A stretch of DNA of 63,265 nt from Nitrospiraceae bacterium. GTDB taxonomy: Bacteria > Nitrospirota > Nitrospiria > Nitrospirales > Nitrospiraceae. Position 1 is the stretch's first letter. Each line of letters begins with the position of its first letter. The translations under genes were made by a program, and so were the position numbers. The stretch spans positions 1 through 63,265 of the forward strand of contig CAKKRK010000035.1 in the NCBI GenBank assembly GCA_919902665.1. The letters run 5' to 3'. Shown one piece after another: positions 9,861-56,331 of the stretch. Below the pieces are notes generated by a model that was not told the DNA's origin, made no database searches, and saw nothing but the letters and a program-made list of their open reading frames with translations.

Positions 9861-10220
9861 TTATTCAAACGCTTCCAGTGACGATTTCTCTGGGAACTGT
9901 CGCTTGCAGCCCTTGCAGGTCACGAAGTAGATGGATTCTCGCACGGATAACGTAGCTCGGAAGTCGAGGTCGACTCCGCGATGGTTGCAGGTCGTGCAGG
10001 AAATCTCCTTCAAGTGAAACGGCACGTCCGGCTGTGTCCGGAGATAAAACTCCATATCGGTATAGAGGGGGAAGGTGTAGAAGCATTTCTTGCAGATGCC
10101 CCGCCAGTCACCGTCGGTTCCCATGGACCGTTCGTCAATGGCAAAACTGGACTGTTTGCAGATGGCGCATTGGACCGTGTTCAGACGCCGTTCTACTTCC
10201 TGTTGAGTGATAGTGACCAT
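9861..10220 (-). CDS. zinc-ribbon hypothetical protein, 119 aa
   Basis: Four CxxC-type pairs are spread through the chain (CAIC, CKKC, CTTC, CKGC), suggesting two zinc ribbons. Start taken at MVTITQQ (10220) rather than the longer upstream ATG, since the extra N-terminus shows no conserved character. It is divergent from the phosphatase gene. A binding or adaptor role is only inferred. Confidence 0.7.
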   Translation of the reverse strand: MVTITQQEVERRLNTVQCAICKQSSFAIDERSMGTDGDWRGICKKCFYTFPLYTDMEFYLRTQPDVPFHLKEISCTTCNHRGVDLDFRATLSVRESIYFVTCKGCKRQFPEKSSLEAFE

Positions 10221-10312
10221 AGGACGAAGAAAACCGTTCCCCAATTGACGAGGTCGAGTATAACGGGCAAGGAAATGGAATCGCAACCACACCGCAAACC
10301 CGACAAGAACGC

Positions 10313-10340
10313 TTGACGTCCATTAGACTCGCGTTATACT
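10313..10340 (+). promoter_or_regulatory. promoter giving a near-leaderless transcript
   Basis: TTGACG at 10313-10318, 16-nt spacer, TATACT at 10335-10340. The expected start of transcription (~10347) falls about three bases before the ATG at 10350, and there is no Shine-Dalgarno, so the phosphatase mRNA is probably leaderless. Confidence 0.6.
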
Positions 10341-10349
10341 GACAACGCA

Positions 10350-10760
10350 ATGCATATGATTACGGATAATCTGTTGGTGGGAAGCATCGACGATGCACAA
10401 GGGCCACCTGAGGTAATCGGTACACTCCTACTCGTGGCTGAAGAGTTTACGATCACACCGGCTGCCTGGGTGGACTATCATCGGATTCCCTTTCGAGAAT
10501 TTGCCAAGGTTGATCCTGCCAAGTTGGCGGAAGCGATGCGATGGCTGGAGCCTCGTGCATCAAAAGGGATGACGTTGGTCTGTTGTCGGGCTGGCATGGG
10601 TCGCTCTGTGTCCGTAGTCATGGCCTATCTCTGTTGCGTGGAAGGCCGGACCTACGATGAGGTCTTGAAGCTGGTCATGGCCCGGCGGCCTGGCGCCATG
10701 CCGCTGCCAAATCTACAGGTCGCCATTGAACAGGTGCGCCAACTCCGCCGCGCCGCGTAG
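10350..10760 (+). CDS. dual-specificity/protein tyrosine phosphatase-like protein
   Basis: 136 residues with the CX5R signature at Cys79-Arg85 followed by Ser (CRAGMGRS), the P-loop of cysteine phosphatases. The residue before the nucleophile is Cys78 instead of the usual His. A general-acid Asp candidate is Asp42 in VDYHRIPF. The remainder (VVMAYLCCVEGRTYDEVLKLVMARRP) matches the small DSPc fold. ATGs at 10350 and 10356 are both possible starts. Substrate unknown. Confidence 0.83.
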   Translation: MHMITDNLLVGSIDDAQGPPEVIGTLLLVAEEFTITPAAWVDYHRIPFREFAKVDPAKLAEAMRWLEPRASKGMTLVCCRAGMGRSVSVVMAYLCCVEGRTYDEVLKLVMARRPGAMPLPNLQVAIEQVRQLRRAA

Positions 10761-41436: not shown

Positions 41437-42231
41437 ATGAACCGATCCACTGAACAGCCCAGCCCACAGCGCCCAAATCAAGCCGTTGAGCCGATCGCTC
41501 CCCATCCGCCGTTACACCAGTACTATGATGAGCTGGATGCCAGGCAGGGATTCCTCAACGAGCTGTTCAACCGAACAGCGTATCAGTATCGCAATATCGA
41601 CAAGGCCACCGGGTTCGGGTCCGGCTTATGGTATCGGAAGAAAGCGCTTGAGTCGGCGGGATTGAAGCCAGGCATGCGGGTGCTCGACGTCGCATGCGGA
41701 CCGGGACTGGTGACGCAATGCGCGCTGAGTCTGGTCGGTCCATCCGGCTCGGTCGTCGGGCTCGATCCCAGTATCGGCATGCTGCGCGAAGCGCAGAAGG
41801 GCCCGTGCCGGAATTTGGTGCGCGGTGTCGGCGAGCGGTTGCCGTTTCCAGACGGACATTTCGATTTTCTCAGCATGGGTTATGCGCTGCGGCATGTGCC
41901 GGATCTTCGGGGCGCGTTTGCCGAGTATCGGCGTGTGCTCAAGCCGGGAGGGATCGTCATGTTACTGGAGATCTCACGACCCCGATCGGCGTTCGTACTC
42001 CTCCTATCGCGGTTTTATATCAAGACCCTGTTAGGGGCCGCGTTCGCCACCGGGACCGGCAATCAGGACATGAAGAAACTGATGGCCTATTGGTGGGAAA
42101 CGACGGAACAGTGTGTTCCCCCCGAAACGATCATTGATGCATTGAAGGGATCGGGTTTTGGAGCCTGTACGGTGAAGGAATGGTTCAGCGGGCTCTTGAG
42201 AGACTATCGGGCGGTGAAGGACTCGGTATAG
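41437..42231 (+). CDS. UbiE-like class I SAM methyltransferase of the pigment locus
   Basis: 264 residues. SAM loop VLDVACGPGLV (residues ~78-88), then VVGLDPS, the motif RLPFPDGHFDFLSMGYALRHV characteristic of UbiE/MenG-type enzymes, and KPGGIVMLLEIS. First gene of the operon, two bases upstream of the ACP. By analogy with APE/xanthomonadin loci it could methylate the aryl head group; substrate not shown by sequence. Confidence 0.85.
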   Translation: MNRSTEQPSPQRPNQAVEPIAPHPPLHQYYDELDARQGFLNELFNRTAYQYRNIDKATGFGSGLWYRKKALESAGLKPGMRVLDVACGPGLVTQCALSLVGPSGSVVGLDPSIGMLREAQKGPCRNLVRGVGERLPFPDGHFDFLSMGYALRHVPDLRGAFAEYRRVLKPGGIVMLLEISRPRSAFVLLLSRFYIKTLLGAAFATGTGNQDMKKLMAYWWETTEQCVPPETIIDALKGSGFGACTVKEWFSGLLRDYRAVKDSV

Positions 42232-42233
42232 AG

Positions 42234-42506
42234 ATGGAACAGTCTGGCGCATCGTTGCTTGAACGAGATCTTGCCAAGCTCATTGTGCAGACGCTCAAGC
42301 TGAAGATCGATCCGGCTGCCATTGAACCGGAGGCCGCGTTGTTCGGCGAAGGGTTGGGGCTCGACTCGATCGATGCGTTGGAACTCTCGCTGGCCATTTC
42401 ACAAACCTACGGGTATCAACTCAAGTCGAGTGATCCGCAGATCAAAACGATCTTTTCATCCTTGCGGGCGTTGGCGGCAGCTATTGAGAAGAACCGCACG
42501 AAGTGA
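42234..42506 (+). CDS. acyl carrier protein of the aryl-polyene synthase
   Basis: 90 residues. Phosphopantetheine attachment Ser45 in GLGLDSIDALEL. The ATG at 42234 follows the methyltransferase stop by two bases. It is the only ACP gene in the locus, whereas the E. coli/Xenorhabdus APE loci carry two (ApeE, ApeF), so it probably serves both starter loading and extension. Its end overlaps the AMP-ligase start (GTGA). Confidence 0.9.
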   Translation: MEQSGASLLERDLAKLIVQTLKLKIDPAAIEPEAALFGEGLGLDSIDALELSLAISQTYGYQLKSSDPQIKTIFSSLRALAAAIEKNRTK

Positions 42507-43867
42507 CGGTCGATAGGGCCATGCGTGAGACCCCCTTGATCGGCCCCTACGATGTCGACGATGTGCTGGCCTGGGATCAGGAAGGGCCGCGCACCGTCCG
42601 CCAGTTTTTGACCGACGCGGCTTCCCTGGCGGAGTCGTTGCCCGATCGATCTACGGCGCTGAATCTTGCCGCCAACCGCTATGACTTTCTGGTGGGATTC
42701 GCTGCCGCCATCATGCGGCGGCAGGTAACGTTACTTCCACAAAGCCGGGCGTCTCAAACGCTGCTTCGGATTGCCAGAGAGTTTCCCGGAAGCTATGCCC
42801 TGACGGATCGAGGCGATGCCATTGAGGGAATCGATTCCGTCTCGATCCAGCTGAGGGGGGACCAGGCTCCGTGGCCGATGGATATTCCACGGATTCCGCC
42901 TGATCGGGTTGTGGCTGTTGCATTCACTTCCGGGAGTACGGGACGGCCCGTGCCGAATAAGAAGACGTGGGGAGCCTTGACAGCTGTGGCCCAGGCGACC
43001 GGAGTGAGACTCGGGATCAAGGCAGGGGATCGTCTTTCGGTGGTGGCGACCGTTCCGCATCAGCATATGTTCGGGCTGGAAGCGTCTGTGATGTTACCGA
43101 TCATGCATGGTTTGGCGATGCATGCCGGGCGTCCGCTGTTTCCGGCCGATATCAGGAGTGTGCTGGCTGATGCGGCGAACGGATGGATGCTCGTGACGAC
43201 GCCTCTCCATCTTCGCGCCTGCGTGTCAGAAAGTATCAGCATGCCGCCGGGTGGACTCATTCTTTCTGCGACAGCCCCGTTGCCCCGCAATTTGGCGCAG
43301 CAGGCTGAGGAGCACTTTCAAGCCGAAGTCCATGAAATTTTCGGGTTTGCCGAAGCCGGTAGCATCGCCGAACGGCGCACAATCGACGGCGACCGGTGGC
43401 ATCCCCTGGAAGGGGTGCATGTGGCGCAGGACGCATCCTCATGTCTGGTGCAGGCATGGTATCTTCCGACGCCTGTGCCTGTGCCGGATCGCATCACAGT
43501 CGATACGGATGGAACATTCGTCGTGCATGGCCGCGAAGCGGATCAGGTGAATGTCGCCGGCCATCGGATATCCCTCGGCGACTTGAACCAGCTCTTGCTG
43601 AAAATCGATGGCGTGCAAGATGGAGTCTTTTTCTTGCCGGAGGAGGGGGCCGGCCTCGTCACGAGGCTCATGGCATTTGTCGTGGCTCCCGGCAAAACCA
43701 GCGAAGAGATTCAACAGAAGCTGCGCGCGTATGTTGACCCGGTATTCATGCCCCGTCCGTTGGTGTGCGTGCCGAGTCTGCCACGGAATGCAACCGGCAA
43801 GCTTCCACGAGAATCCGTGAACGAGTTGGCCCGGCAATGGCTGGAGAGGGAAGGCGATGGCGCATGA
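42503..43867 (+). CDS. AMP-dependent aryl/acyl ligase
   Basis: 454 residues, ANL superfamily. P-loop AFTSGSTGRPVPNKK (~136-150), PHQHMFGLE, FGFAEAGSIAERR in the A5 region, DTDGTFVVHGREADQVNVAGHRIS and the catalytic Lys in ATGKLPRE near the C-terminus. ApeH/XanA2-like: it should adenylate a hydroxybenzoate and load it on the adjacent ACP. Overlaps both neighbours, so translation is coupled. Confidence 0.87.
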   Translation: MTVDRAMRETPLIGPYDVDDVLAWDQEGPRTVRQFLTDAASLAESLPDRSTALNLAANRYDFLVGFAAAIMRRQVTLLPQSRASQTLLRIAREFPGSYALTDRGDAIEGIDSVSIQLRGDQAPWPMDIPRIPPDRVVAVAFTSGSTGRPVPNKKTWGALTAVAQATGVRLGIKAGDRLSVVATVPHQHMFGLEASVMLPIMHGLAMHAGRPLFPADIRSVLADAANGWMLVTTPLHLRACVSESISMPPGGLILSATAPLPRNLAQQAEEHFQAEVHEIFGFAEAGSIAERRTIDGDRWHPLEGVHVAQDASSCLVQAWYLPTPVPVPDRITVDTDGTFVVHGREADQVNVAGHRISLGDLNQLLLKIDGVQDGVFFLPEEGAGLVTRLMAFVVAPGKTSEEIQQKLRAYVDPVFMPRPLVCVPSLPRNATGKLPRESVNELARQWLEREGDGA

Positions 43868-44180
43868 ACGAACGGTCTTGATCGGCCACGATCATCCGTC
43901 GCTCGCGGGACATTTCCCCGGACACCCGGTTGTGCCTGGCGTGGTGTTGCTTGGTGAAGTGATCGAGACGTTGCGTCACAGTGCGGCGGCTCGGTCGGTG
44001 AGGGGATTGCCCATGGTGAAATTCTCCTCTCCGTTGAAGCCTGGTGAGGTCGTTACCATTTGTGTGAATCAGGATGAGGTTGCGCTGGCCTCGTTTTCTT
44101 GCCGGGTCGGGACCAGGCTTATTGCGTCCGGCGTGATTGAACTGGCATCCGGGACGGCGGCGCAGATGGAAGGGGTGTGA
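43857..44180 (+). CDS. FabZ/ApeI-like hotdog dehydratase
   Basis: 107 residues. DHPSLAGHFPGHPVVPGVVLLGEV carries the HFPGxPxxPG signature with catalytic His of FabZ-type 3-hydroxyacyl-ACP dehydratases; central helix with the acidic residue follows. Corresponds to ApeI. Overlaps the ligase by 11 bp and the next gene by 4 bp. Probably one partner of the ApeI/ApeP dehydratase pair with the product at 49987. Confidence 0.85.
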   Translation: MAHERTVLIGHDHPSLAGHFPGHPVVPGVVLLGEVIETLRHSAAARSVRGLPMVKFSSPLKPGEVVTICVNQDEVALASFSCRVGTRLIASGVIELASGTAAQMEGV

Positions 44181-45073
44181 GCCTCGCGTGGCGACAACAA
44201 TCGGAGCGCGGCAGCCGCGCCGGTATTCGGATCATGGCCTGGGTAGCGCAATTCCTCGGCCGTCCGGCCGCCCGCGCGCTGCTCTATCCGATTTGTGTGT
44301 ATTACTTGCTAGGATCGGGGTCTGCCCGACGGGCCATTGCGCGATTCCGTGAGCGGGCCCTTGGCCGGCCTGCCGGATGGGGCGAACTGTTCCGCCATTA
44401 TCACGCATTCGCCTCCACAATTCTTGACCGAGTCTATTTTCTCCGCGGACAGTTCGACCTTTTCGATATCCGGTTCCATGGCCTGGATGTGCTGGATCGG
44501 GAGCTGGCCAAGGGACGGGGCTGTGTGCTATTAGGCGCGCATCTCGGAAGTTTCGAAGCGGTCCGGGCGATGGGTCTCCTCGGGCGACAGCTCGACATTC
44601 GAATCCTCATGGATGAGCAGAATGCGCCGTTGATTCGCGGACTGACCCAGACATTGAACCCCATGATGGCTGACACGGTGATTCAGACGGGCGGGATTCA
44701 CGCACTCCTGCAAGTGAAGGAATGTCTCGAACGGGGTGGGATCGTCGGTGCGATGGGTGATCGTGTGACGCCGCAAGATCAGGCCATCGGATGTTCGTTT
44801 TTCGGCAGTGAGGCCAGATTCCCGACCGGGCCGATCCGTATGGCTCATGTGGTTCAGGCGCCGGTGGTGCTGTTTTTCGGGCTCTATCGGGGAGGAAACC
44901 GCTATGACGTGCGTCTTGAGTCATTTAGCGGCGAGACTTGTGTGCCGCATGACCGCCGGGATATCGATTTGACGCAGGAGGTGCAGCGATTTGCCGGCCG
45001 CCTCGAGGAGGTCTGCCGCCTTGCGCCGGACAATTGGTTCAACTTCTATGATGTGTGGAATCGTTCGAATTAG
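44177..45073 (+). CDS. LpxL/HtrB-like lysophospholipid acyltransferase
   Basis: 298 residues. Acyltransferase block GAHLGSFEAVRAMG with the His and Glu of the HX4(D/E) site, and GDRVTP..GCSFFGSEARFPTGP typical of the LpxL family. An N-terminal amphipathic/hydrophobic stretch (ALLYPICVYYLLG) suggests membrane association. In aryl-polyene loci this enzyme attaches the polyene to a lipid or carrier acceptor. GTG start overlapping the dehydratase stop. Confidence 0.85.
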   Translation: MSLAWRQQSERGSRAGIRIMAWVAQFLGRPAARALLYPICVYYLLGSGSARRAIARFRERALGRPAGWGELFRHYHAFASTILDRVYFLRGQFDLFDIRFHGLDVLDRELAKGRGCVLLGAHLGSFEAVRAMGLLGRQLDIRILMDEQNAPLIRGLTQTLNPMMADTVIQTGGIHALLQVKECLERGGIVGAMGDRVTPQDQAIGCSFFGSEARFPTGPIRMAHVVQAPVVLFFGLYRGGNRYDVRLESFSGETCVPHDRRDIDLTQEVQRFAGRLEEVCRLAPDNWFNFYDVWNRSN

Positions 45074-45677
45074 CCTGTTCTTTTTGTTTAGCGGTCTGCT
45101 GCTGGTGGGAACTGTAGCCGCTCCAGAGAACGCCTCTGCTCTCGGCGATGACGTGACCGGCGCCTGGACGGTCGAGCAGGTCGTGGCGTCGCTGAAGGAA
45201 GAGCGGGAACCTGCGGTGCCCTTCGAAGAGGCGACGCATTCGTCGTTGCTGAGTGCGCCGCTCATTGTGCGCGGCATATTGCGCTTCACGCCTCCGTCTC
45301 GACTGGAAAAAGAAGTGCTGGAACCCTACCACGAACGCTATGTCGTCGAAGGAGACCTCGTGACTTTCGAGAGCGAACGAAAGCGTCTAAAAAAAAGTAT
45401 TTCTCTGGGAGACTATCCGGGCTTGCACGGGTTCGTCGAGGCATTTCGGGCAGGTTTTACCGGAGACGCAGGCCGGCTCATGCAATCATATGACACGGTC
45501 ATAGAGGGGACCAGGCTTAAGTGGACGTTGGTGTTGCGCCCTCGTGATCCGGCAGGACGATCGATGGTTGAAGACCTCGTATTCTCAGGCTCCGAGGGGA
45601 GGATCAGCTCCATCGTCATCCATGCAGCGGACGGCGACCGGTCGGTGATGACGCTTCGTCGAGGGGCGGCCAAGTGA
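45048..45677 (+). CDS. LolA-like outer-membrane lipoprotein carrier of the locus
   Basis: About 209 residues from the ATG-ATG pair at 45048/45051, which overlaps the acyltransferase end. Signal peptide ISLFFLFSGLLLVGTVAAPENASA. The mature part (APLIVRGILRFTPPSRLEKEVLEPYHERYVVEGDLVTFESE) resembles LolA-type lipid carriers that accompany APE exporters. It likely ferries the aryl-polyene lipid across the periplasm. Assignment is by fold-like pattern and position. Confidence 0.75.
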   Translation: MMCGIVRISLFFLFSGLLLVGTVAAPENASALGDDVTGAWTVEQVVASLKEEREPAVPFEEATHSSLLSAPLIVRGILRFTPPSRLEKEVLEPYHERYVVEGDLVTFESERKRLKKSISLGDYPGLHGFVEAFRAGFTGDAGRLMQSYDTVIEGTRLKWTLVLRPRDPAGRSMVEDLVFSGSEGRISSIVIHAADGDRSVMTLRRGAAK

Positions 45678-47992
45678 GAGCCTCTCGGTGGCCGGTTCTT
45701 ATCTGGAGCATCTGCTTCGCCGGCGCGCTGTGGCTCGCGGCAACAGAATTATCGATCCATAGCGATCTGAGCGATCTCCTTCCGGAAGGGACTACCAATA
45801 CCCAACGGTTGTTGCTGACTCAAGTGCGGTCTGGCCTGGCGGGCCGGTTGATTCTTGTGGCGATTGAGGGTGCAGAACCGGATGAGTTAGCCAGGCTGAG
45901 CCGGGACCTGAGCAAGAGGCTGCAAGGAGATGCGCAGATTGATTTTGTGGGGAATGGGGCGCAGGGGCTCTCTTCCGATGAGCAGCAGCTCTTGTTTCGC
46001 TTGCGGTATTTTCTGAGTTCTACGTTACAGGCGGATACATTTTCGGTGGACTCCCTGCGCGGGGCTCTTGAAAAACGGCTGGATGATCTACGGTCTCCAC
46101 TCGGTCTCCTCATCAAGGAATATATTCCATCCGACCCCACCGGAGAGTTCCTGGGGATTCTCCAGTCCTGGTCCGAGTGGGAGGCGCCGACGAAGCATCG
46201 AGAAGTTTGGATGTCGGCGGATCTCCAGCGGGCTCTGCTCGTGGTGCAAACCAAAGCCGCCGGGTTCGATGCCGAGCCGCAGGCAGCCATTCAGCAGCAT
46301 ATTCAGGCGGTCTTTCAACAGTTACGCAAGGACTCGTCGTCGGCCCGATTGCTTCTGAGCGGACCCGGAGTATTTGCGGTGGAAATCCAGCAAACGATCG
46401 AACAGGAGATTTGGTGGCTTTCAGTCACGGCGTCCCTGCTGGTCGTTGTGTTTCTCTGCGTCACCTATCGATCGGTGACTCTGATGGTCTTGAGTCTGAT
46501 TCCGCTGACCAGCGGAATCCTGGCCGGCCTGGTTGCAGTGAATAGTTGGTTCGGATTCGTTCATGGCATCACGTTGGGGTTCGGCATCACGCTGTTGGGC
46601 GTCGTGGACGATTACCCTATCCATTTGTTCAGCCATCTGACCAGGAAGGAGTCTGCCCAGACGACGATGCGCGCGATCTGGCCGACGATGCGGCTGGGGG
46701 TTGTGACGACGGCCATCGGATTTTCATCGTTGTTGCTTGCCGGCTTTCCTGCCTTGGCGCAACTGGGGCTCTTTGCGGTAGTCGGGCTGGGAACGGCGGC
46801 GGTGGTGACTCGGTGGGTGCTCCCTGTCTGTGTCCCTGCCGGATTTGTTCCTCGGGAAATCCGACCGGATTTGGGGCGCTTGGTGGATGATCTGCCGAAA
46901 GCGAAGATTGTGGTGCCGGTGGCGGTCATTCTTGCGACAATTGTACTGATATGGTCAGATACACCGTTCTGGCAGGAAGATCTGGAGAGTCTGAGCCCCC
47001 TGTCGGCGGACAAGAAAGAGCTGGATCAGCATCTGCGACAGGAACTGGGTGCGCCGGATGTGCGGGATCTATTGGTCGTCGAAGGGACGAGCGTCGAGGC
47101 TCTCTTGATGAAGGCTGAAGCCATGATGCCGAGGCTGGAGCAGCTGCGAGAAGGTCGTGTGTTGTCCGGCTACGACATGGTCTCGCGCTATCTGCCGAGC
47201 CATCATGTGCAGCAGGATCGGCTGAAGGTTTTGCCTGAGCGGGAGGTGCTTGAAAGAAATCTCGCTGTCGCGCAGAAGGGGCTGCCGTTTATGCCCGGGT
47301 TGTTCGCTCCATTCGTGACGGCGGTTGCTGAGGCACGGAGTCTGCCGTTTATCGATCGGGATACATTCAGGGGGACGACGTTGGGAATGAAATTGGAGTC
47401 GTTGCTGTTCTCCCATCAGGATGAATGGCTAGCGATTGTTCCGCTCCGTGGAGTTTTTGATCGGACCCAGCTTGCGACGGCAGCGGCAAGCTGGGGAGAT
47501 ACCTCGGTGAGTTATGTGGACCTGAAGGAAGAGTCGAACCGGCTGATGCGGGCCTATCGCAATCGGATGATGCAATTAGTGGGGTGGGGGACAATTGCTA
47601 TTACGGTTTCGCTGGCAGTCGGATTGGGATCGATCACTCGGCTCGGACCGGTACTTGCTCCGATCGGCTGCGCCTTGATTGTTGTGGTTGCTGTTTTAAA
47701 AGGATCGGGCGAGTCGCTCTCGTTATTTCATGTGGCAACCTTTCTGCTTGTGATCGGGTTGGGGCTCGATTATTCTCTGTTCTTTAATCGACGGGAGGGG
47801 ACTGAAATCGAGCGAGCTAAGACCGTTTTTGGTCTACTGGTCTGTAGCACGACAACGATTCTCGTGTTCGGCCTGTTGGCCTTCTCGAAGATCCCTGTGC
47901 TCCATGCAATTGGATTGACCGCAGCCTGCGGATCGTTGTGTTGTCTGCTCTTTTCAGGGTTGATGGCGCAGCGGGAGGCGACTGATGCCTGA
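45674..47992 (+). CDS. MMPL/RND-type exporter
   Basis: 772 residues. Two halves, each with one N-terminal helix, a large periplasmic domain and a five-helix bundle (e.g. LSVTASLLVVVFLCVTYRSVTLMVLSLIPL; GWGTIAITVSLAVGLGSITRL). Short GVVDDYPIHLFSHLTR and GLGLDYSLFFNRRE stretches carry the conserved Asp-Tyr pair of the proton relay. Corresponds to ApeM/XanF-type exporters. GTG start overlapping the carrier gene; C-terminus overlaps the ketosynthase. Confidence 0.88.
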   Translation: MRASRWPVLIWSICFAGALWLAATELSIHSDLSDLLPEGTTNTQRLLLTQVRSGLAGRLILVAIEGAEPDELARLSRDLSKRLQGDAQIDFVGNGAQGLSSDEQQLLFRLRYFLSSTLQADTFSVDSLRGALEKRLDDLRSPLGLLIKEYIPSDPTGEFLGILQSWSEWEAPTKHREVWMSADLQRALLVVQTKAAGFDAEPQAAIQQHIQAVFQQLRKDSSSARLLLSGPGVFAVEIQQTIEQEIWWLSVTASLLVVVFLCVTYRSVTLMVLSLIPLTSGILAGLVAVNSWFGFVHGITLGFGITLLGVVDDYPIHLFSHLTRKESAQTTMRAIWPTMRLGVVTTAIGFSSLLLAGFPALAQLGLFAVVGLGTAAVVTRWVLPVCVPAGFVPREIRPDLGRLVDDLPKAKIVVPVAVILATIVLIWSDTPFWQEDLESLSPLSADKKELDQHLRQELGAPDVRDLLVVEGTSVEALLMKAEAMMPRLEQLREGRVLSGYDMVSRYLPSHHVQQDRLKVLPEREVLERNLAVAQKGLPFMPGLFAPFVTAVAEARSLPFIDRDTFRGTTLGMKLESLLFSHQDEWLAIVPLRGVFDRTQLATAAASWGDTSVSYVDLKEESNRLMRAYRNRMMQLVGWGTIAITVSLAVGLGSITRLGPVLAPIGCALIVVVAVLKGSGESLSLFHVATFLLVIGLGLDYSLFFNRREGTEIERAKTVFGLLVCSTTTILVFGLLAFSKIPVLHAIGLTAACGSLCCLLFSGLMAQREATDA

Positions 47993-49202
47993 TCCAAAAC
48001 CGATGACTCCCCTGACATTGTCCGCCTATACCCTCGTGACGGCGAATGGCCGAGGGGTTGGCCCCGTTCTTCAGGCTCTCCAGGAGCGGCGATCCGGCTT
48101 AAAGCCGTGCGACTTCGAAGATGTGGCGTTGAAAACATCGATCGGACGAGTAACCGGCCTCGAGGATTTCTCACTCGATGACGAACTACGGGCCTTCGAC
48201 TGTCGCAACAACCGGCTGGCTTGGCTTGGCCTTCAGCAGGACGGTTTCATGGTGGCGGCGGCGGAGGCGAAACAGCGATACGGTGCCCATCGGATCGCTG
48301 TCGTGATGGGCACGAGCACGTCCGGGATTCTGGAGACCGAACATGCCTACCGCGAGCGCGATCCTTCCACCGATCGGCTTCCGGACTGGTACAGGCCGCG
48401 GTATCGATATACGCATAACATGTTTTCTCTTGGGCATTTCGTGAGGACCTGTCTCGGATTGCAGGGGCCGGCCATGGTGATTTCGACCGCCTGTTCTTCG
48501 AGCGCGAAAGTCTTTGCGACCGCCGCCCGGTTGATGCAAGCCGGCCTGTGTGATGCCGCCGTGGTTGGTGGAGTGGATAGCCTCTGTCTTACGACGTTGT
48601 ATGGATTTTCCGCGCTACAACTGTTGTCGGCGGATCCGTGCAGGCCCTGCGACGAAGATCGGGACGGATTGTCGCTGGGTGAGGCGGCCGGCTATGCATT
48701 ACTGGAGTTCGGCGAACGGGTGGGCGGACGAGGAACTGTCGCCCTTCTCGGCTATGGTGAGAGCACGGACGGCTATCATATGTCGCATCCGCACCCCGAA
48801 GGGGCAGGGGCGGTCCGCGCAATTCGAGACTCCTTGGCTCGGGCCTCGCTTCGTGCTGAGGACATTGAATATATCAATCTGCACGGGACAGCGACGAGGG
48901 CGAACGACTCAGTCGAGGACAAGGCTGTCTATAGTATTTTTGGGGCTCGGCCTGCATGCAGTTCAACCAAAGGCTGGACCGGGCATACGTTGGGTGCTGC
49001 CGGTATCACGGAAGCGGTCATTTCCGCCCTCTGTCTTGCCCAGGGGCTGATGCCCGGGACGCTCAATTGCCAGCGAGTGGATTCTTCGTTGAAAAGCCGG
49101 ATTCTTCGCGAGAACCAGACCGGCTCCATTTCTTTCGCGGTGAGTAACATCTTCGGGTTCGGCGGAAATAACTGCAGCTTGGTCTTAGGGAAATTGCCAT
49201 GA
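47985..49202 (+). CDS. beta-ketoacyl-ACP synthase (FabF/ApeR-like)
   Basis: 405 residues with the full catalytic triad: Cys170 (STACSSSA), His300 (NLHGTATRAND) and His334 (GWTGHTLGAAG). FabF-type elongating ketosynthase, corresponding to ApeR/ApeO. It is the only complete ketosynthase in the locus; the next gene encodes a half-length partner. Overlaps the exporter by 8 bp. Confidence 0.92.
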   Translation: MPDPKPMTPLTLSAYTLVTANGRGVGPVLQALQERRSGLKPCDFEDVALKTSIGRVTGLEDFSLDDELRAFDCRNNRLAWLGLQQDGFMVAAAEAKQRYGAHRIAVVMGTSTSGILETEHAYRERDPSTDRLPDWYRPRYRYTHNMFSLGHFVRTCLGLQGPAMVISTACSSSAKVFATAARLMQAGLCDAAVVGGVDSLCLTTLYGFSALQLLSADPCRPCDEDRDGLSLGEAAGYALLEFGERVGGRGTVALLGYGESTDGYHMSHPHPEGAGAVRAIRDSLARASLRAEDIEYINLHGTATRANDSVEDKAVYSIFGARPACSSTKGWTGHTLGAAGITEAVISALCLAQGLMPGTLNCQRVDSSLKSRILRENQTGSISFAVSNIFGFGGNNCSLVLGKLP

Positions 49203-49999
49203 AGGTCTCGATCGGCGGCATTGGTCTCTTGGCTTCAGGCCTTGTCGGTTGGGATGTCGGTCGAGAAGTGCTCGCCGGGATTCGCCCCTATCGACCGGGA
49301 GCCGTGCCCGATCCGGAAGCAAAACTGCTGCCTCCGAATGAACGGCGGCGGAGTAGTGACTGCGTCCGGTGGGCCATGCAGGTTGCGCAAGAAGCTATCG
49401 GCCGATCGGGCTTGGACCCTCGCGAGGTGCCGACTGTGTTTGCCTCCTCGGGTGGTGAAATGGGCGTGTTCGACAAACTCTGTCGTGCCCTCTGTTTGCC
49501 GGATCGGATGATTTCCCCGACGCTGTTTCATCAATCGGTACATAACACAGCCGCCGGCTATTGGGGCATTGCGACGGCCGGGCAACAGTCCTCGACGGCG
49601 CTGTCTTGCTACGACGATTCGTTTGCAGCCGGTTTGCTGGAAGCGGCGACAGTGGTGTGTGTGGAACAACGGCCGGTGTTGCTGGTGGCCTACGATCTGG
49701 TCGTGCCGGAGCCGCTCAGCCAGGCTCGCCCCATTACAGAGGGATTTGCCGTGGCGCTCGTGCTGACACCTCCCTCGGACGACTCCTCTCCCGTCATGCG
49801 GGTGCATCTTGAAACAGCGCATACAGGCAAAACAGCCGGTCTTGACGATCCCGAATTGGAACGGGTTCGGCAAGACAATCCCGCTGCCCGCGCGTTGCTT
49901 CTATTGAGCGCTGCCGCTGCTGGCGGCGGGCGAACCGTCGGGTTCAGCTTGTCGGATAGCCAGCAGCTCATTGTGGATCTTGAGCTATGCCGTATTTGA
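49199..49999 (+). CDS. ketosynthase N-terminal-like chain-length factor (ApeC-like)
   Basis: 266 residues, PF13723 type: TVFASSGGEMGVFDKLCRALC, HQSVHNTAAGYWGIATAGQQSSTALSCYDDSFAAGLLEA. It lacks the C-terminal half and so both catalytic His of a true ketosynthase, which fits a chain-length factor pairing with the upstream enzyme as ApeC does. Overlaps neighbours on both sides. Confidence 0.86.
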   Translation: MKVSIGGIGLLASGLVGWDVGREVLAGIRPYRPGAVPDPEAKLLPPNERRRSSDCVRWAMQVAQEAIGRSGLDPREVPTVFASSGGEMGVFDKLCRALCLPDRMISPTLFHQSVHNTAAGYWGIATAGQQSSTALSCYDDSFAAGLLEAATVVCVEQRPVLLVAYDLVVPEPLSQARPITEGFAVALVLTPPSDDSSPVMRVHLETAHTGKTAGLDDPELERVRQDNPAARALLLLSAAAAGGGRTVGFSLSDSQQLIVDLELCRI

Positions 50000-50430
50000 C
50001 CAAAGACGACCTGGCAGCCTTTCTTCCCCATGCGGGGTCCATGCGGCTGCTCGACCGGGCGGCATCATGGGACGAGTCATCGATTCGCTGCCATACAAAG
50101 ACCCATCACGATCCGGAAAATCCGCTTCGCCGTGGCGCATGCTTGGATGCCGTCGCGGGGATCGAATATGCCGCTCAAGCGATGGGAGTCCATGTCGGGT
50201 TGCTCAATGGAGGGATGTCGTCGGACGGGTCGATCGGCTATGTCGGAGGTGTACGTGATGTGGTGTTCGGAATCGACCGGCTTGATGACTGTCCGGATGA
50301 ACTGACGATCGAGGCGACGCGCCTGTTCATGGGAGACGACAGTTTTCTGTATCGATTTGCTATTTCATCCGGAGGCCGTGAAGTGATAAGCGGGCGGGCC
50401 TCGATGTTTTTGAAACGGGCACCGGTATGA
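49987..50430 (+). CDS. ApeP-like 3-hydroxyacyl-ACP dehydratase
   Basis: 147 residues. FLPHAGSMRLLDRAASWDESSIRC at the start (catalytic His in PHAG) and LRRGACLDAVAGIEYAAQAMGVHVGLL in the middle are hallmarks of the ApeP dehydratase family. With the FabZ-like protein at 43857 it should form the polyene double bonds. Overlaps the chain-length factor by 13 bp and the reductase by 4 bp. Confidence 0.88.
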   Translation: MPYLTKDDLAAFLPHAGSMRLLDRAASWDESSIRCHTKTHHDPENPLRRGACLDAVAGIEYAAQAMGVHVGLLNGGMSSDGSIGYVGGVRDVVFGIDRLDDCPDELTIEATRLFMGDDSFLYRFAISSGGREVISGRASMFLKRAPV

Positions 50431-51152
50431 CGCAGAGACGCGCGCTGGTTACGGGTGGGAGCGGTGTCATCGGCTCAGTGATTGCCGAACGGCTGGCCGC
50501 CGACGGACATGCCGTGATCCTGCATGCGTACCGGCATGTCGAGTCGGCTCAACGGACGGTCGAGAAGATCACGGCTCATGGCGGGACTGCGGCGAGCGTG
50601 TCCTTCGACATCACGGACGCGGGTGCGACACGCCGGACGCTTGACACACTGTTGAAAGATGGGCCGATTCAAATCGTGGTCAACAACGCTGGCTTGCATG
50701 AGGATGCGCCGATGGCCGGAATGTCCGGCGAGCAGTGGAGCAGGGTGATCGATCTCTCGCTCAACGGGTTTTTCAACGTCACGCAGCCGCTGTTGCTGCC
50801 GATGATCGGCACGCGCTGGGGGCGGATCGTTTCCATCTCATCGTTAGCCGGCGTGATCGGCAACCGCGGCCAGACGAACTATGCCGCGGCCAAGGCCGGC
50901 CTGCATGGGGCGAGCAAGTCGCTGGCGATCGAATTGGCGTCACGAGGCATCACGGTTAATGTGGTAGCGCCCGGCTTAATCGAATCACCCTCCACCAGGA
51001 ATGCCTTCAAGCCGGAGCAGATTGAAGCGATGGTGCCGATGAAACGTGCCGGCACTCCGGAAGAAGTGGCGGCGCTGGTCTCGTTTTTGCTGTCAGAGCA
51101 GGCCGGATATATTACGGGACAGGTTATCGGGGTGAATGGAGGCATGGCGTAG
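50427..51152 (+). CDS. FabG/ApeQ-like 3-oxoacyl-ACP reductase
   Basis: 241 residues, classical SDR. NADPH loop GGSGVIG (11-17), NNAG (87-90), catalytic Ser138/139, Tyr152 and Lys156 (YAAAK), and a C-terminal GQVIGVNGG typical of FabG. Reduces the growing beta-keto chain. A dispersed hairpin repeat starts three bases after the stop, marking the end of the core operon. Confidence 0.92.
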   Translation: MTQRRALVTGGSGVIGSVIAERLAADGHAVILHAYRHVESAQRTVEKITAHGGTAASVSFDITDAGATRRTLDTLLKDGPIQIVVNNAGLHEDAPMAGMSGEQWSRVIDLSLNGFFNVTQPLLLPMIGTRWGRIVSISSLAGVIGNRGQTNYAAAKAGLHGASKSLAIELASRGITVNVVAPGLIESPSTRNAFKPEQIEAMVPMKRAGTPEEVAALVSFLLSEQAGYITGQVIGVNGGMA

Positions 51153-51154
51153 CA

Positions 51155-51344
51155 GGATGGTGAAAAAGGCCGTCAGCTGCGTTCCCTGCCTTCGCCGAAG
51201 CGCTTCGCGCAGGCAGGTCGCATCGCTCAGACCAGAAATCGAAGGCAAAGTACATATCCGCTCGCTGCTGCCGCGCCTGTGGAAAGGCGCGTCTTGGCGC
51301 GCCGGGGTTGGGTGGATGAGAGCAGCGACATTTTTGACCACCCT
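51155..51344. repeat. dispersed hairpin repeat, copy C
   Basis: Begins three bases after the ketoreductase stop. Ends GGATGGTGAAAAAGG (51155-51169) and CATTTTTGACCACCC (51329-51344 region) are inverted. Contains GCGCAGGCAGGTCGCATCGC shared with copy B and a GGCGCG-tcttgg-CGCGCC palindrome shared with copy D. Confidence 0.75.
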
Positions 51345-51380
51345 GCATTGTTATCCAGAGATGTGCCTCAAGAGTGCCTG

Positions 51381-52214
51381 ATGATGAGCAGCATGTTGCG
51401 AGATACGCTTCAAGAGGAACGAGCGACGGGATCGTATTGGGTCGTCATCCCGTCCTATAACGAGGCTACGACTGTCCGTGAGGTGGCTACGCGCGCGCGC
51501 CGACACTGTTCAAACGTGATCGTCGTGGACGATGGGTCCATCGATGGGACGATACAGACATTGGCAGGCCTGGATGTGACGGTCTTACGCAACGATGAGA
51601 ACCGTGGCAAGGCCGGTAGCCTCATGCGCGGATTCGATCATGCCTTGGCTCATGGTGCAGTCGGCGTTATGACACTGGATGCTGATGGTCAGCATGCGCC
51701 GGAAGAGATTCCTTCATTTCTGGAGCAAACAACCCAATATGCCGCTGCATTCATCATCGGCGTCCGACGCCGAGACCAACGACAGACGTCGTTCTGGCGC
51801 TACGCCGCTAACCGGATCGCCGACTTCTGGATCGGATGGGCGGCCGGAATGCCGATCGAGGATAGCCAATCCGGATTCAGGCTGTATCCTGCTCAGCTCT
51901 TACGAACAGTGACGATTCCCCATGGCCTACGTGCGAGTTTCGTCTATGAGAGCGAGATTCTGATCGAAGCAGCCAGGCAAGGGTTTGAACTCAAACACGT
52001 CATTGTCACGGTCACATCGCGATCAGGGCCGACTCCGAGTCATTTCCGTCCGTTGGCGGATATCGCCGGGATCGTAAGGATGGTGGCGTGGAAGCTTATC
52101 AGTCGAGGACTCTATCTCAGAGGGTTATATCGGATCTGTTTCAAGCGGACGGAATCTGCGAGCCCAGCCCACCACTATCACCGCCAAGAAGTGCCGGGGC
52201 ACATACACAAATAA
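51381..52214 (+). CDS. DPM1-like family 2 glycosyltransferase
   Basis: 277 residues. GT-A fold: VIPSYNEATTV, VIVVDDGSIDGT, LDADGQH (the DxD-type site) and DSQSGFRLY. Similar to dolichyl/polyprenyl-phosphate sugar transferases but without C-terminal membrane helices. The ATG at 51381 was chosen; the frame is open back through the repeat, which looks non-coding. It is the last + strand gene before a convergent terminator and may glycosylate the pigment or its carrier lipid (inference). Confidence 0.85.
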   Translation: MMSSMLRDTLQEERATGSYWVVIPSYNEATTVREVATRARRHCSNVIVVDDGSIDGTIQTLAGLDVTVLRNDENRGKAGSLMRGFDHALAHGAVGVMTLDADGQHAPEEIPSFLEQTTQYAAAFIIGVRRRDQRQTSFWRYAANRIADFWIGWAAGMPIEDSQSGFRLYPAQLLRTVTIPHGLRASFVYESEILIEAARQGFELKHVIVTVTSRSGPTPSHFRPLADIAGIVRMVAWKLISRGLYLRGLYRICFKRTESASPAHHYHRQEVPGHIHK

Positions 52215-52294: not shown

Positions 52295-52705
52295 CTACAT
52301 CCCTGCTGCGGTTAACCGTGCGCGAATGGCCCCGTCCAACCGTTGGATCCAGCCTGAGTAGTTTTCATGAATGGTCTGTTTCTCAGCATTGTATTTCAGA
52401 TTGGTGCTATTTTTGTAAATGATGCTGTAGTTCGTTGTTGTGTATGGAATCAAGACGACAGCCTGGTGGCTCCGGACGTTCAAGGTCCCGATGATTTCAC
52501 CGGGTTTGGCCACTGCCATTTGCCAGTTTAGCCCTACGCCTGCGGTGATGATGGCTTTCTGGACATCTTCTAAACTTGGCTGTTTGCCTGTCGCAGTTTG
52601 AACAGGCGCGTCCTTGACCTGGAAGATCTGTGCGCCGCCTCGGCAGCCCATTATGGCGACGAAGAGAACGCAGAGGACCAATGCAGCTGGGCGTAAGCTA
52701 TTCAT
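52295..52705 (-). CDS. hypothetical lipoprotein, 136 aa
   Basis: Lipobox AIMGC after a hydrophobic signal (ALVLCVLFVAIMGC). The mature part QPSLEDVQKAIITAGVGLNWQMAVAKPGEIIGTL..RSHQAVVLIPYTTTNYSIIYKNSTNLKY...IHENYSGWIQRL is a pattern found in small conserved proteobacterial-type lipoproteins of unknown function. Start fixed by AAGGAGGTG. Last gene of the - strand pigment operon. Confidence 0.8.
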   Translation of the reverse strand: MNSLRPAALVLCVLFVAIMGCRGGAQIFQVKDAPVQTATGKQPSLEDVQKAIITAGVGLNWQMAVAKPGEIIGTLNVRSHQAVVLIPYTTTNYSIIYKNSTNLKYNAEKQTIHENYSGWIQRLDGAIRARLTAAGM

Positions 52706-52722
52706 CAACACACCTCCTTGTC

Positions 52723-53667
52723 TTAAGCCTGATCGGAATGATAGCCGGCTATCTCCGGTATGACCGGTTGTCGTATAGGAATATATCGGGGTGAACTCTC
52801 CCACATCGGAACCGGAGCATACCCCAAATCAAAAACTGAGTCGATTAGGGATTCCAGCAGAGCGAGGTTCGCCGGTCGCATGCCCCATCGATTCCACCTG
52901 GACATCGTCCGAGGGAAAATCTGATCTTTGGCATGAATGAATTCGGACGGGTGGCAGTAGAACACGAGATGTCGTGAGCGACGACCGATCCACTCGATCA
53001 TGCGCTGTAAGGCTGGTAAACCCAGTACCCGCAGCGTGGCGAGGTTGATGGGAAAGAGGCAGGCCGAGGGGGGGATCTCAAGAATGCTGCTCTTGCCAGG
53101 CCGATGCAGCCCTTGCCAGGAGGGGTTGTAGGGTTCCAGTGGAGCCCAGAAATATTTCGTATAGTGCACGCGCCCAAATCCCATGTCGAAGCGCCTGGCT
53201 GGAACCGATGAGTCGTAGCGATAGCCTTCATCCTCGAGGGCCCGCAAGGTCGCTTCTCCGATACGGAGATTCGGGGCTCTGAAAATAACGGGCCGTATCC
53301 CTGAGGCCTGTTCGACGGCATCGGTCGCCCTGCTGATCCATTCCCGTTGTTGCTCGTAGCTGGCCACGCGAAAGTCCTCGTCGTGCTCAAGTCCTCCATG
53401 GGCCCACCCGTGCGTCCCTAACTGGTGTCCACGGCGGTGGCATTCACGGACCAAATCCGGATAGTTTTCTGCGAATCGTCCAGCGAAGAAGATCGTTCCC
53501 TTGATCTGGTATTGGTCGCACAGGTGCAGCAGGCGCTCGAGTCCTGCCTGCGAGCCGGGAACCCAGTCGCAGTCGACCGTGAAATAAAACCGTGCCGTAG
53601 AGGCTTGGTTCTGTCCCGTTCCGTTGAACGGGCGGGGTTTAGAGCTGTGTAGTCTAGCAGGGAGCAT
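52723..53667 (-). CDS. polysaccharide deacetylase (NodB-type) family protein
   Basis: 314 residues. FTVDCDW supplies the catalytic/metal Asp pair, GTHGWAHGG the H-x3-H metal site, and FRAPNLRIGE the Arg-Pro motif; HPSEF near the C-terminus is the usual final His. Start at 53667 preferred because AAGGAG lies nine bases upstream, over the in-frame ATGs at 53685 and 53700. No signal peptide. Lies between the chorismatase and the lipoprotein; a deacetylation step in glycan or pigment decoration is inference. Confidence 0.83.
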   Translation of the reverse strand: MLPARLHSSKPRPFNGTGQNQASTARFYFTVDCDWVPGSQAGLERLLHLCDQYQIKGTIFFAGRFAENYPDLVRECHRRGHQLGTHGWAHGGLEHDEDFRVASYEQQREWISRATDAVEQASGIRPVIFRAPNLRIGEATLRALEDEGYRYDSSVPARRFDMGFGRVHYTKYFWAPLEPYNPSWQGLHRPGKSSILEIPPSACLFPINLATLRVLGLPALQRMIEWIGRRSRHLVFYCHPSEFIHAKDQIFPRTMSRWNRWGMRPANLALLESLIDSVFDLGYAPVPMWESSPRYIPIRQPVIPEIAGYHSDQA

Positions 53668-53721
53668 TACCGGCGGCTCCTTCATGTTGTGTCTAAACAC
53701 AGAGGGATTGTGTGAGCATGA

Positions 53722-54768
53722 TCAACCAGAGATGATCAGTCCCTCGATTTCAACCAATAATTCTTTTCTGCAGAGATCGCTCTGGAGGAATAGGACCTGT
53801 TCGCCAGAGAGGGGCGAATGCATGATAGCGTCCTGTATCTCAGCGTGCGAGGCGGAGTCGCGCACATAGACTTTGTAGAGCGCCTGGCGCTGTGTGCCGA
53901 TGAGGTTGAAGCCTGCGGCATGCTGTGCCTGCTCGAAGACGGCCTGGATGTTCCGAATCGTTTCTTCCGTTTGCGCGCGCGGCAGCCCGGCATGGCGGCT
54001 TGCGTGTCCGACGACGCTCGCAGTGCCGGAAAGATAGAGCCGGCATTCCTCCTCCGACCGAGTGAGCGTGGCCCGGGCGAATGATGGGCTGCGAGGCCCA
54101 TAGTCCTGAGGGTAGTCGTAGGCGTTCAGTTGGCGCGGATTGCTGAGATGTGTCGCAGGCTGCGTCCCGGCGAGAAACATGATTTGCAGCGGGCCGGATT
54201 TCGTTCCGACGGCTGTCGCCGCCGGCAGGGAAGAGGGAAAATCAGCCAGTGTCTTGGTCAGCGCGTGATGGCGCCCCAGGCAGAATCGCCGATACCGCTC
54301 GAGCCCGTTCTGATCGTCGTTGATGCGGGGAAAGTAATTCCAGATCCGCCACAAATAGGGGTATCCCAAGGTATGGAGCCGATGGAGAATGGCTTTATAG
54401 GCCTCATAGGCTGCGGCGTCCATGGACCGGTCCGCGCCCTCCTCGAGACTCATTGAACCGATAAGAACGTTGCCGTTCATGGCGATTGAGCAGGCAGGGT
54501 CTGTGTGGAGTGTTATGAGCCTGTCGGATGTCCAGACCTCGGCCATCGGCGGTCCATCGATCTGAGGGAGATCGAGTGCGATGACCGGGCATGGGAATGT
54601 GCTGGACAGCGTTTGCCCAAACGTGACGATGGCCATAGGATACGCGGTGGATTCGGCTAGCGTGAGCGGCAGCTGTGCGCACTCGACATATGACACGTCC
54701 GGTCGGGCGGTTGTTTCTGAAACTCGTCGGGCTGCCATGGTGGATGGTGGAATGGTCGTCAATTTCAC
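53722..54768 (-). CDS. FkbO/Hyg5/XanB2-family chorismatase
   Basis: 348 residues. Family hallmarks: YPYLWRIWNYFPRIN, GLERYRRFCLGRHHAL, LPAATAVGTKSGPLQI, LNAYDYPQDYGPRSPSFARA and FNLIGTQRQALYKVYVRD. The family hydrolyses chorismate to a dihydroxy-cyclohexadienoate or to 3- (and, for XanB2, 4-) hydroxybenzoate. XanB2 supplies the aryl starter of xanthomonadin, so next to an APE operon the same role is expected. It follows the halogenase-like gene by 21 bp. Which subtype it is needs an active-site alignment. Confidence 0.87.
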   Translation of the reverse strand: MKLTTIPPSTMAARRVSETTARPDVSYVECAQLPLTLAESTAYPMAIVTFGQTLSSTFPCPVIALDLPQIDGPPMAEVWTSDRLITLHTDPACSIAMNGNVLIGSMSLEEGADRSMDAAAYEAYKAILHRLHTLGYPYLWRIWNYFPRINDDQNGLERYRRFCLGRHHALTKTLADFPSSLPAATAVGTKSGPLQIMFLAGTQPATHLSNPRQLNAYDYPQDYGPRSPSFARATLTRSEEECRLYLSGTASVVGHASRHAGLPRAQTEETIRNIQAVFEQAQHAAGFNLIGTQRQALYKVYVRDSASHAEIQDAIMHSPLSGEQVLFLQSDLCRKELLVEIEGLIISG

Positions 54769-54789
54769 AGTCGCGCGGCCTCGCTGTCG

Positions 54790-56142
54790 TTATCGGCGAT
54801 CGTGAATGGCATAATCTTTGAGCGTCGTCACGGTTTCCGGCACGCCGCGGATGCGGCGCTGGAATGCCGTCCAATTCTCCCTGAAGTTGAAGAGATAGAC
54901 GAGATAATAGGCGATTTTGAACAGGAAAATTGGGAGTCTCGTCGGAGATTTGCCGAAGGCGTCGCCGGCTAGAATGGAGAGAATCGCCTCCTCCATTTTG
55001 AATTTGGATCCTTCGGACATGAACAGATTGCGGAAGGCCGGCTGGGTGAAGTGATAGATAAACCAGGAATAGGTTTTTACGCCCAAGCGGACGCTCCGTT
55101 CAAACTCCTGGAGGTGTCGCTGGTATTCTGGTGACTTCCGCAAATAGGCATCGACGACGTCGGCGCCCAGTGTGGCGCTATTGAGCGCCAGATGCACGCC
55201 GCTGGAGAACACCGGGTCGATGAAAGCGAAGGCGTCGCCCACCATCAAGTATCCGTCGCCACGCATGGTCGATCGGCGATAGGAGTAGTTGGCGGCGGCA
55301 TAGGCTTGGCCGATGAGTGTTGCCTTGGCCATACGTTCTGCCACGGGAGCGCAGAGGGCGATCGTATCCCACAGAAATTGCTCCAGCGGAACCTTTCGGG
55401 TGCTGATATATGAGGGCCAGCAGACCGCTCCCACACTGGTCGTGCCGTCCTTGAACGGAATGATCCACCACCAGCCGTGATCGAACCAGACGATGCTGAT
55501 ATTGCCCTCATCCTTTCCGGGCAGCCGTCGCACGCCTTCGAAATGTCCAAACACAGCCGCGCTGTTGTGGCTGGGATTGCGATACTTGCCGCCAAATTGT
55601 CCGGAAAGAAATGTGTCGCGCCCGCTGGCATCGACTACGAACTTGGCTTCGTAGCCGACCGCGTTTCCCGTCCGGTCTTCAGCCTGAACCAGATGGGTAG
55701 AGTTGTGCCGGAACTCAACGCGTTTCGCCCGGATGCCCTCATGTACGCGGACTCCCTTGCTGACGGCGTTGTCGATCAGGATCTTATCGAATTCGGCCCG
55801 TTTAACTTCATAGGAATACGGTTGTGAGCCGTCCAGCGCCTTCGAAAAGTACAGGGTGCGGGATCGTCCGTGATACGGCGAGACAATTTCCGCACCGTAT
55901 TTGGTGATGCCGATCTTTTCGACTTCCGGGAGCACACCCAATCGTTGCAATATCGGGAGTGAATGAGGGAGCAGCGATTCGCCGATGTGGAAGCGCGGGT
56001 GGCGGTCTTTCTCCAGCACATGCACGTCCCATCCCTTTTCTGCCAGCAGCGCAGAAATGGCCGAGCCGGCCGGGCCGCCTCCGACCACGAGGACGTCGCA
56101 TGTTGTGAGTGGGCTCGTTATGCCGGGGGCTGAAGTCTGCAT
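54790..56142 (-). CDS. flavin-dependent halogenase-like enzyme
   Basis: 450 residues from MQTSAPGITS; longer starts lack support. FAD loop GGGPAGS (21-27), GESLLPHSL, a Lys at 81 in TKYGAE aligned with the catalytic Lys region of phenol/pyrrole halogenases, and Trp224-x-Trp226-x-Ile228-Pro229, the WxWxIP halogenase signature. DAFAFIDPVFSSGVHLAL completes the FAD domain. It lies in one operon with the chorismatase. Related geranylgeranyl reductase-like oxidoreductases lack WxWxIP, so halogenation of the aryl or polyene part is favoured but not proven. Confidence 0.8.
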   Translation of the reverse strand: MQTSAPGITSPLTTCDVLVVGGGPAGSAISALLAEKGWDVHVLEKDRHPRFHIGESLLPHSLPILQRLGVLPEVEKIGITKYGAEIVSPYHGRSRTLYFSKALDGSQPYSYEVKRAEFDKILIDNAVSKGVRVHEGIRAKRVEFRHNSTHLVQAEDRTGNAVGYEAKFVVDASGRDTFLSGQFGGKYRNPSHNSAAVFGHFEGVRRLPGKDEGNISIVWFDHGWWWIIPFKDGTTSVGAVCWPSYISTRKVPLEQFLWDTIALCAPVAERMAKATLIGQAYAAANYSYRRSTMRGDGYLMVGDAFAFIDPVFSSGVHLALNSATLGADVVDAYLRKSPEYQRHLQEFERSVRLGVKTYSWFIYHFTQPAFRNLFMSEGSKFKMEEAILSILAGDAFGKSPTRLPIFLFKIAYYLVYLFNFRENWTAFQRRIRGVPETVTTLKDYAIHDRR

Positions 56143-56331
56143 GACAATAAGTGTGTTTGAACAGCGGTAGTGCAGCGACGGAGTATACCTCAGAGATGAC
56201 ATGATGGCCAGCGCGCGGGCTGCGGTTTCCATGTGTCCGGTGCAACCTGATTTTCTTGACATCCCTATGCAATCGTCCTAGCTTTCATCTTGTTCGTGGA
56301 GGGCGCAAAAACCGGATATAAGCGGCACGCT

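Follow-up and report, generated by a model that had tools for sequence, protein, structure and literature searches.

A XanB1–XanB2-type halogenase–chorismatase gene pair beside an aryl-polyene cluster in Nitrospira

In the 63,265-nucleotide contig analysed here (hereafter the window, contig C35 of a 3.56-Mb genome that is 99.9% complete and whose closest named relatives are Nitrospira MAGs), a gene for a flavin-dependent halogenase lies directly upstream of one for a chorismatase. This arrangement raises the questions of whether the two genes belong together, what the chorismatase would make, and at which stage of pigment assembly a halogen would be introduced. The explanation that we regard as probable, taken as a whole, is that they are the Nitrospira version of the XanB1–XanB2 pair within a xanthomonadin/arcuflavin-type cluster, and that the halogenase acts on an aryl intermediate bound to the acyl carrier protein (ACP).

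The operon and the convergent pigment cluster

The preliminary description had placed both genes on one strand, 21 bp apart, and the reading frames and the gap (54769-54789, between the halogenase stop and the chorismatase start) were verified. The halogenase frame opens with an ATG at 56142 and closes with a TAA stop at 54790 (Table 1), and the closest relatives (L018 and L034) share both its 450-aa start and the chorismatase start codon; a 490-aa halogenase beginning at 56262 was rejected as the mechanically longest reading. On the same strand, 21 bp beyond the chorismatase, lies a polysaccharide deacetylase gene, followed after ~17 bp by a putative lipoprotein gene, and the four genes probably form one operon, the latter two being a continuation that the preliminary description did not mention. 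In most Nitrospira loci the chorismatase gene has the deacetylase gene behind it, and in most the short lipoprotein gene ends the operon. Promoter and terminator scans gave a signal no higher than in shuffled sequence. Divergent from the halogenase stands a radical-SAM protein gene (56296-58083) with weak matches to B12-binding radical-SAM families, which occurs at that place solely in the closest relatives (L018, L019, L034, L035, and L036).

Table 1. Positions of the operon, of the convergent cluster, and of diagnostic residues in the window
Feature	Coordinates	Strand	Basis or comment
UbiE-like methyltransferase	41437..42231	+	PF01209
Acyl carrier protein (ACP)	42180..42506	+	PF00550, E=1e-8
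AMP-ligase	42503..43867	+	PF00501; XanA2/ArcT-like starter loading by position
ApeI-like dehydratase	43857..44180	+	PF22818, weak
LpxL-like acyltransferase (AT)	44177..45073	+	PF03279
LolA-like carrier	45048..45677	+	PF19574
MMPL exporter	45674..47992	+	PF03176
Ketosynthase (KS)	47985..49202	+	NF006618, 512 bits, above cut-off
Chain-length-factor-like half ketosynthase (half-KS/CLF)	49199..49999	+	PF13723
Dehydratase (DH)	49987..50430	+	Position and homology to relatives; no Pfam match
Ketoreductase (KR)	50427..51152	+	PF13561
GT2 glycosyltransferase	51279..52214	+	PF00535
Putative lipoprotein, fourth gene of the probable operon	52295..52705	-	Start is an internal ATG; no Pfam match; position conserved
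Polysaccharide deacetylase, third gene of the probable operon	52723..53700	-	PF01522, E=1e-21; arcN-like
Chorismatase, XanB2 type by ancestry	53722..54768	-	348 aa; GTG start at 54768
Chorismatase catalytic Glu340 codon	53749..53751	-	Hyg5 Glu334; 95/95 relatives
Chorismatase Cys333 codon	53770..53772	-	Hyg5 Cys327, FkbO Ala; 95/95 relatives
Chorismatase Gly248 codon	54025..54027	-	Hyg5 Gly240, FkbO Ala; 95/95 relatives
Chorismatase Ala186 codon	54211..54213	-	Gly173 in Hyg5, Gly in FkbO; Ala in 88/95 relatives
Flavin-dependent halogenase	54790..56142	-	450 aa; XanB1 orthologue by position and homology
Halogenase tunnel motif FxxPxxSxG (FIDPVFSSG, residues 307-315)	55198..55224	-	F, S, and G in 48/48; P in 47/48
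Halogenase WxWxIP motif (WWWIIP, residues 224-229)	55456..55473	-	Fixed positions in 48/48
Halogenase catalytic Lys81 codon	55900..55902	-	Aligns with the Lys column of PltA/CndH/ChlB4; K in 48/48 family members

Convergent with this operon is a complete type II aryl-polyene PKS gene set, whose AMP-ligase also matched the 4-coumarate-CoA ligase model at an E-value (4e-35) under the cut-off of that model. With the arcuflavin gene list as the reference for cluster type (PMC3949708), the occurrence of chorismatase, AMP-ligase, ACP, KS, half-KS/CLF, KR, DH, AT, LolA, and MMPL in one locus identifies the cluster as xanthomonadin/arcuflavin-type. Since aryl-polyene clusters of some Nitrospira species had already been reported via antiSMASH (PMC9765116), the cluster itself is not new; a chorismatase–halogenase pair in Nitrospira was not described in the literature that we found.

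In the pathway proposed here, the chorismatase would convert chorismate into 3-hydroxybenzoate (3-HBA), perhaps also 4-hydroxybenzoate (4-HBA), and pyruvate, the AMP-ligase would load the hydroxybenzoate onto the ACP, and KS/CLF, KR, and the dehydratases would extend the loaded starter into an aryl polyene. The XanB1-type halogenase, supplied with reduced flavin, would use a halide and O2 via Lys81 and would halogenate the phenol ring, or the adjoining chain, of an ACP-bound aryl intermediate. The product, the halide used, and the ACP-bound state of the substrate are the parts of this scheme that we infer.

A gene pair conserved across two phyla

The pair is a Nitrospira copy of one already known from Xanthomonas and Azoarcus, a precedent that the preliminary description did not mention. 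In Xanthomonas, the ACP, XanB1, XanB2, and AMP-ligase genes have successive locus numbers (PMC3838355); as in the window, XanB1 stands directly upstream of XanB2 on one strand beside the ACP and AMP-ligase, and AT, LolA, MMPL, DH, and KR belong to the same cluster. Two 4.8-Mb Xanthomonadales genomes (L171 and L172) show the same order as the Xanthomonas list. In these Xanthomonas-type loci, recognised by taxonomic order and gene order only, the halogenase and chorismatase frames overlap by 4 bp, whereas the window genes are 21 bp apart, and identity of the window proteins to the Xanthomonas-type ones is ~45% for the halogenase and ~40% for the chorismatase. A further difference is that a second halogenase gene is listed for Xanthomonas (PMC3838355), whereas the genome of the window gave one match; this second gene (gene H) was not found in the fetched stretches of the flanks L194 and L195.

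In Azoarcus sp. BH72, arcA (halogenase) and arcB (XanB2-type chorismatase) are neighbours, ArcB yields both 3-HBA and 4-HBA, and ArcT activates 3-HBA (PMC3949708). The published list of arcA-arcB and arcM-arcX shares with the window the neighbouring halogenase and chorismatase, a polysaccharide deacetylase, LolA, an exporter, an AMP-ligase, and an ACP, along with KS, half-KS, DH, KR, and a glycosyltransferase. The Azoarcus genes differ in occupying two unlinked loci together with a dialkylresorcinol cluster; ArcA was compared by gene list.

Of 48 loci from Nitrospirota and Pseudomonadota, nearly all have the two genes on one strand with the halogenase immediately preceding the chorismatase. 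In Nitrospira, 14-27 bp separate the two genes; other Nitrospirales have gaps of up to 127 bp, and in Pseudomonadota the value is often -4 or -1, with stop and start overlapping. Within the genus sample, 13 of 47 genomes carry the halogenase and all 13 of these also carry the chorismatase, which occurs alone in one genome. A sample of 200 genomes from a betaproteobacterial family contained the halogenase in 34, the chorismatase in 43, and both in 31, with the pair directly adjacent on one strand in 27 of these 31. Co-occurrence was strong in the family sample (Fisher p=3e-23) and in the genus (p=1e-10), p-values that overstate independence among related genomes. The halogenase and chorismatase trees broadly agree, placing Nitrospira with other Nitrospirales and apart from most proteobacterial groups. 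Because adjacency recurs in nearly all 48 loci and presence is strongly linked, the pairing is not due to chance; the co-operonic organisation put forward in the preliminary description is supported.

Several additional halogenase-related genes were observed. A solitary XanB1-like halogenase, 62% identical, is encoded at 9196-10554 of locus L191 (G072:C7), with no chorismatase or other pigment gene in the 20 kb covered and with proA-like, queG-like, and groEL genes among its neighbours. A distant second FAD-dependent halogenase-like protein (~24% identity) lies between the KS and MMPL genes in Nitrospirales clusters (L032 15336-16481, L051 15922-17091, and L053 16016-17161). In a MAG labelled Bordetella parapertussis, a label that looks doubtful, the halogenase frame is broken early (L094 8538-8804).

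The halogenase, its substrate, and the timing of its reaction

The halogenase belongs to the Trp_halogenase family (PF04820, E=1.4e-26) and carries all the features expected of flavin-dependent halogenases, namely GxGxxG, WxWxI(P), FxxPxxSxG, and the catalytic Lys; these motifs are the ones by which halogenases are distinguished from monooxygenases (PMC12871659). All checked positions also hold in 101 more tblastn matches, some of which share genomes. Loss of the catalytic Lys, named beforehand as a ground for abandoning the proposed function, was looked for, and Lys81 is intact here and throughout the family. Gene identity, intact catalytic residues in both enzymes, the XanB2 clade of the chorismatase (see below), conserved adjacency, and linked presence are thus all legible in the sequences, and they favour the earlier claim that this is a putative starter-forming and halogenating pair.

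Among solved structures, the nearest halogenase sequences are ChlB4 (E=1.2e-56), FasV (8zop), which ranks second, Mpy16, CndH, and PltA. Carrier-bound acyl groups are the substrates of ChlB4, PltA, Mpy16, Bmp2, and CndH, whereas FasV and RadH take free substrates. The window enzyme shares with ChlB4, PltA, Mpy16, and CndH the fold, the catalytic Lys, the WxWxIP motif, and the tunnel motif, and its alignment with ChlB4 and PltA takes in the C-terminal helices as far as about residue 427; it differs from this group in its identity of only ~30%, in having one residue fewer ahead of the Lys, and in falling into a separate XanB1 clade. The AlphaFold2 model (pLDDT 84.6) gave fold Z-scores of 46.1 for 3nix, 44.5 for Bmp2, 44.1 for FasV, 42-43 for ChlB4, PltA, and Mpy16 (ChlB4 42.6), 40.0 for CndH, and 39.3 for RadH, against at most 35 for hydroxylases; PltM and CtcP appeared in the Foldseek results and were absent from the best 50 VIA-align matches listed. 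The comparison with carrier-bound and free-substrate enzymes that the preliminary description had suggested therefore gave a divided answer: the nearest sequences, mostly of carrier-bound enzymes, lean towards a carrier-bound substrate, whereas the modelled fold is not decisive, FasV scoring as high as the carrier-bound enzymes.

Halogenation could in principle take place on free 3-HBA, on 3-hydroxybenzoyl-ACP, or on the ACP-bound or finished polyene. The preliminary description had argued from gene order that the starter rather than the finished polyene is halogenated, an argument that we do not retain: since the halogenase–chorismatase order is inherited family-wide, in two phyla and in Xanthomonas too, it is uninformative on timing. 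A substantial possibility, though one that we hold short of probable, is that the halogenase comes into play only once the chain has been elongated, its substrate being the aryl polyene either on the ACP or in finished form, with the gene neighbourhood reflecting co-expression and not consecutive steps. Xanthomonadin I, reportedly described by Andrewes in 1976, is said to bear a ring Br and a second Br on the adjoining polyene carbon, the latter impossible to set on a benzoate starter; the literature consulted confirms xanthomonadin as 'dibrominated' only, not the Br positions. A chain Br would mean that at least one halogenation follows extension, unless the second Xanthomonas halogenase sets it, as that separate gene could (PMC3838355). 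The existence of halogenase-free chorismatase loci in the same genus likewise makes halogenation an optional decoration, whereas the tight linkage of the pair to starter formation speaks against action after elongation.

A reaction on free 3-HBA ahead of loading appears unlikely to us. Azoarcus incorporates 4-fluoro-3-HBA into its pigment, and a C4 halogen thus passes its ligase and PKS, so a halogen introduced before loading is tolerated, while the ligase uses 3-methoxybenzoate poorly (PMC3949708); the free-substrate enzymes FasV and RadH, moreover, have the same fold. Against this, the window sequence is far closer to ChlB4 (195 bits) than to the free-phenol enzyme PltM (62 bits), and because the nearest sequences are those of carrier-bound enzymes, free 3-HBA would be the least likely substrate when weighed with the ACP-bound starter and the ACP-bound polyene.

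We similarly give little credence to the notion that the XanB1-type protein does not halogenate, being instead a flavin monooxygenase or serving some other role. It draws on the annotation of Xanthomonas XanB1 as merely a 'putative reductase/halogenase' (PMC3838355), on the hydroxylases having the same fold at lower Z (PHBH 34.8), and on arcuflavin, which, by our reading of the reported m/z 608.4 (PMC3949708), is without halogen despite the halogenase-annotated arcA beside the chorismatase gene, a point that the preliminary description had not raised. Conservation of WxWxIP, FxxPxxSxG, and the catalytic Lys throughout the family argues against it, as does the contrast between Lysobacter, which lacks the halogenase gene and makes a non-brominated pigment, and Xanthomonas, which has the gene and makes a brominated one (PMC3691225). 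A published in vitro halogenation by a XanB1-clade enzyme was not found in our literature search. Arcuflavin serves as a warning that a cluster may carry a halogenase gene and still, in the culture conditions chosen, yield a product without halogen.

Chorismatase type and halogenase-free loci

The chorismatase carries an FkbO_Hyg5-like_N domain (PF21168, E=1.1e-36) and, when compared with the sequences of solved structures, matches Hyg5 (5ag3, E=5e-39) and FkbO (4bps, E=2e-37), at an identity of ~34% to each. Its AlphaFold2 model (mean pLDDT 87.9) matched 5ag3 (345 columns) and 4bps (342 columns) best, and 5a3k as well, over nearly the full length, and matched YjgF/RutC proteins in part, consistent with an FkbO/Hyg5-like N-terminal domain and a YjgF-like C-terminal half. 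The Hyg5-type signature consists of Gly, Gly, and Cys, with Glu334 being catalytic (PMC7170507). With Hyg5 and Nat-hyg5 (CH-II), the window enzyme shares the fold, the catalytic Glu, and the second Gly and the Cys of the signature; it differs in having Ala186 for Gly173, in its separate clade, and in scoring 204.5 bits against NCBIfam TIGR04444 (FkbO/Hyg5), below the curated cut-off of 325. Likewise, the last two positions of the Nat-hyg5 signature (Gly164/Gly231/Cys318) are present, and the first corresponds to Ala186 if Gly164 equals Hyg5 Gly173, an alignment deduced from a constant offset. Ala at position 186 also occurs in the Xanthomonadales-type orthologues.

In the chorismatase tree, the window enzyme and these orthologues, which serve as the XanB2 reference rows and were recognised by taxonomic order and gene order only, fall into one 80-row clade apart from Hyg5 and FkbO (SH-aLRT 99), and on this grouping the window chorismatase is assigned to the XanB2 type by ancestry. 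Its likely product is 3-HBA, perhaps also 4-HBA, a prediction in keeping with the earlier proposal of a hydroxybenzoate-forming, not dihydrodiol-forming, enzyme; because the product of a chorismatase is not fixed by sequence alone (PMC3949708), we infer it here. An FkbO-type enzyme (CH-I) supplying a dihydrodiol, for which the equal identity to FkbO and that same caution might be cited, was rejected as highly improbable on active-site residues and tree, as the FkbO-subtype residues chosen beforehand as refuting evidence were looked for and found absent: FkbO has Ala at the positions of Gly248 and Cys333, and Ala and Val at those of the retained Arg212 and Gln213. The enzyme also lies in the XanB2 clade. 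Elsewhere in the genome, a UbiA-type prenyltransferase (L193, G000:C39:33811-34647) narrowly passes the cut-off for proteobacterial ubiA; since UbiA relatives serve other quinone routes too, this match gives no conclusion on 4-HBA for ubiquinone.

Two genomes, G030 and that of Nitrospira isolate RCB, contain a halogenase-bearing cluster plus a second, halogenase-free chorismatase locus (L023/L024 and L040/L048, respectively), and the halogenase-free Nitrospira loci constitute one clade in the chorismatase tree. The loci of this second clade are L024, L031/L047, L048, L049, and L050; in L047, a class I methyltransferase gene overlaps the chorismatase end in place of the halogenase. One genome has, beside its intact locus, a second pigment locus that has decayed (L033, G017:C4:209570-210058), in which a chorismatase fragment contains an in-frame TAG and the ligase match is shortened.

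A more specific version of the preferred reading, halogenation of an ACP-bound aryl intermediate, is that the XanB1-type enzyme is the sole halogenase and acts on 3-hydroxybenzoyl-ACP, so that Nitrospira would make a mono-halogenated xanthomonadin-like aryl polyene and the halogenase-less sister clusters of the genus would make plain pigment. We advance this version only tentatively and regard it as somewhat unlikely in full; if true, such a mono-halogenated polyene would be a compound not known from the phylum. The genomes with both kinds of locus, G030 and isolate RCB, represent natural controls for the role of the halogenase. The XanB1–XanB2 pair known from Xanthomonas and Azoarcus is now extended to Nitrospirota, and its two genes have remained immediate neighbours in two phyla, whereas the remaining cluster was rearranged.
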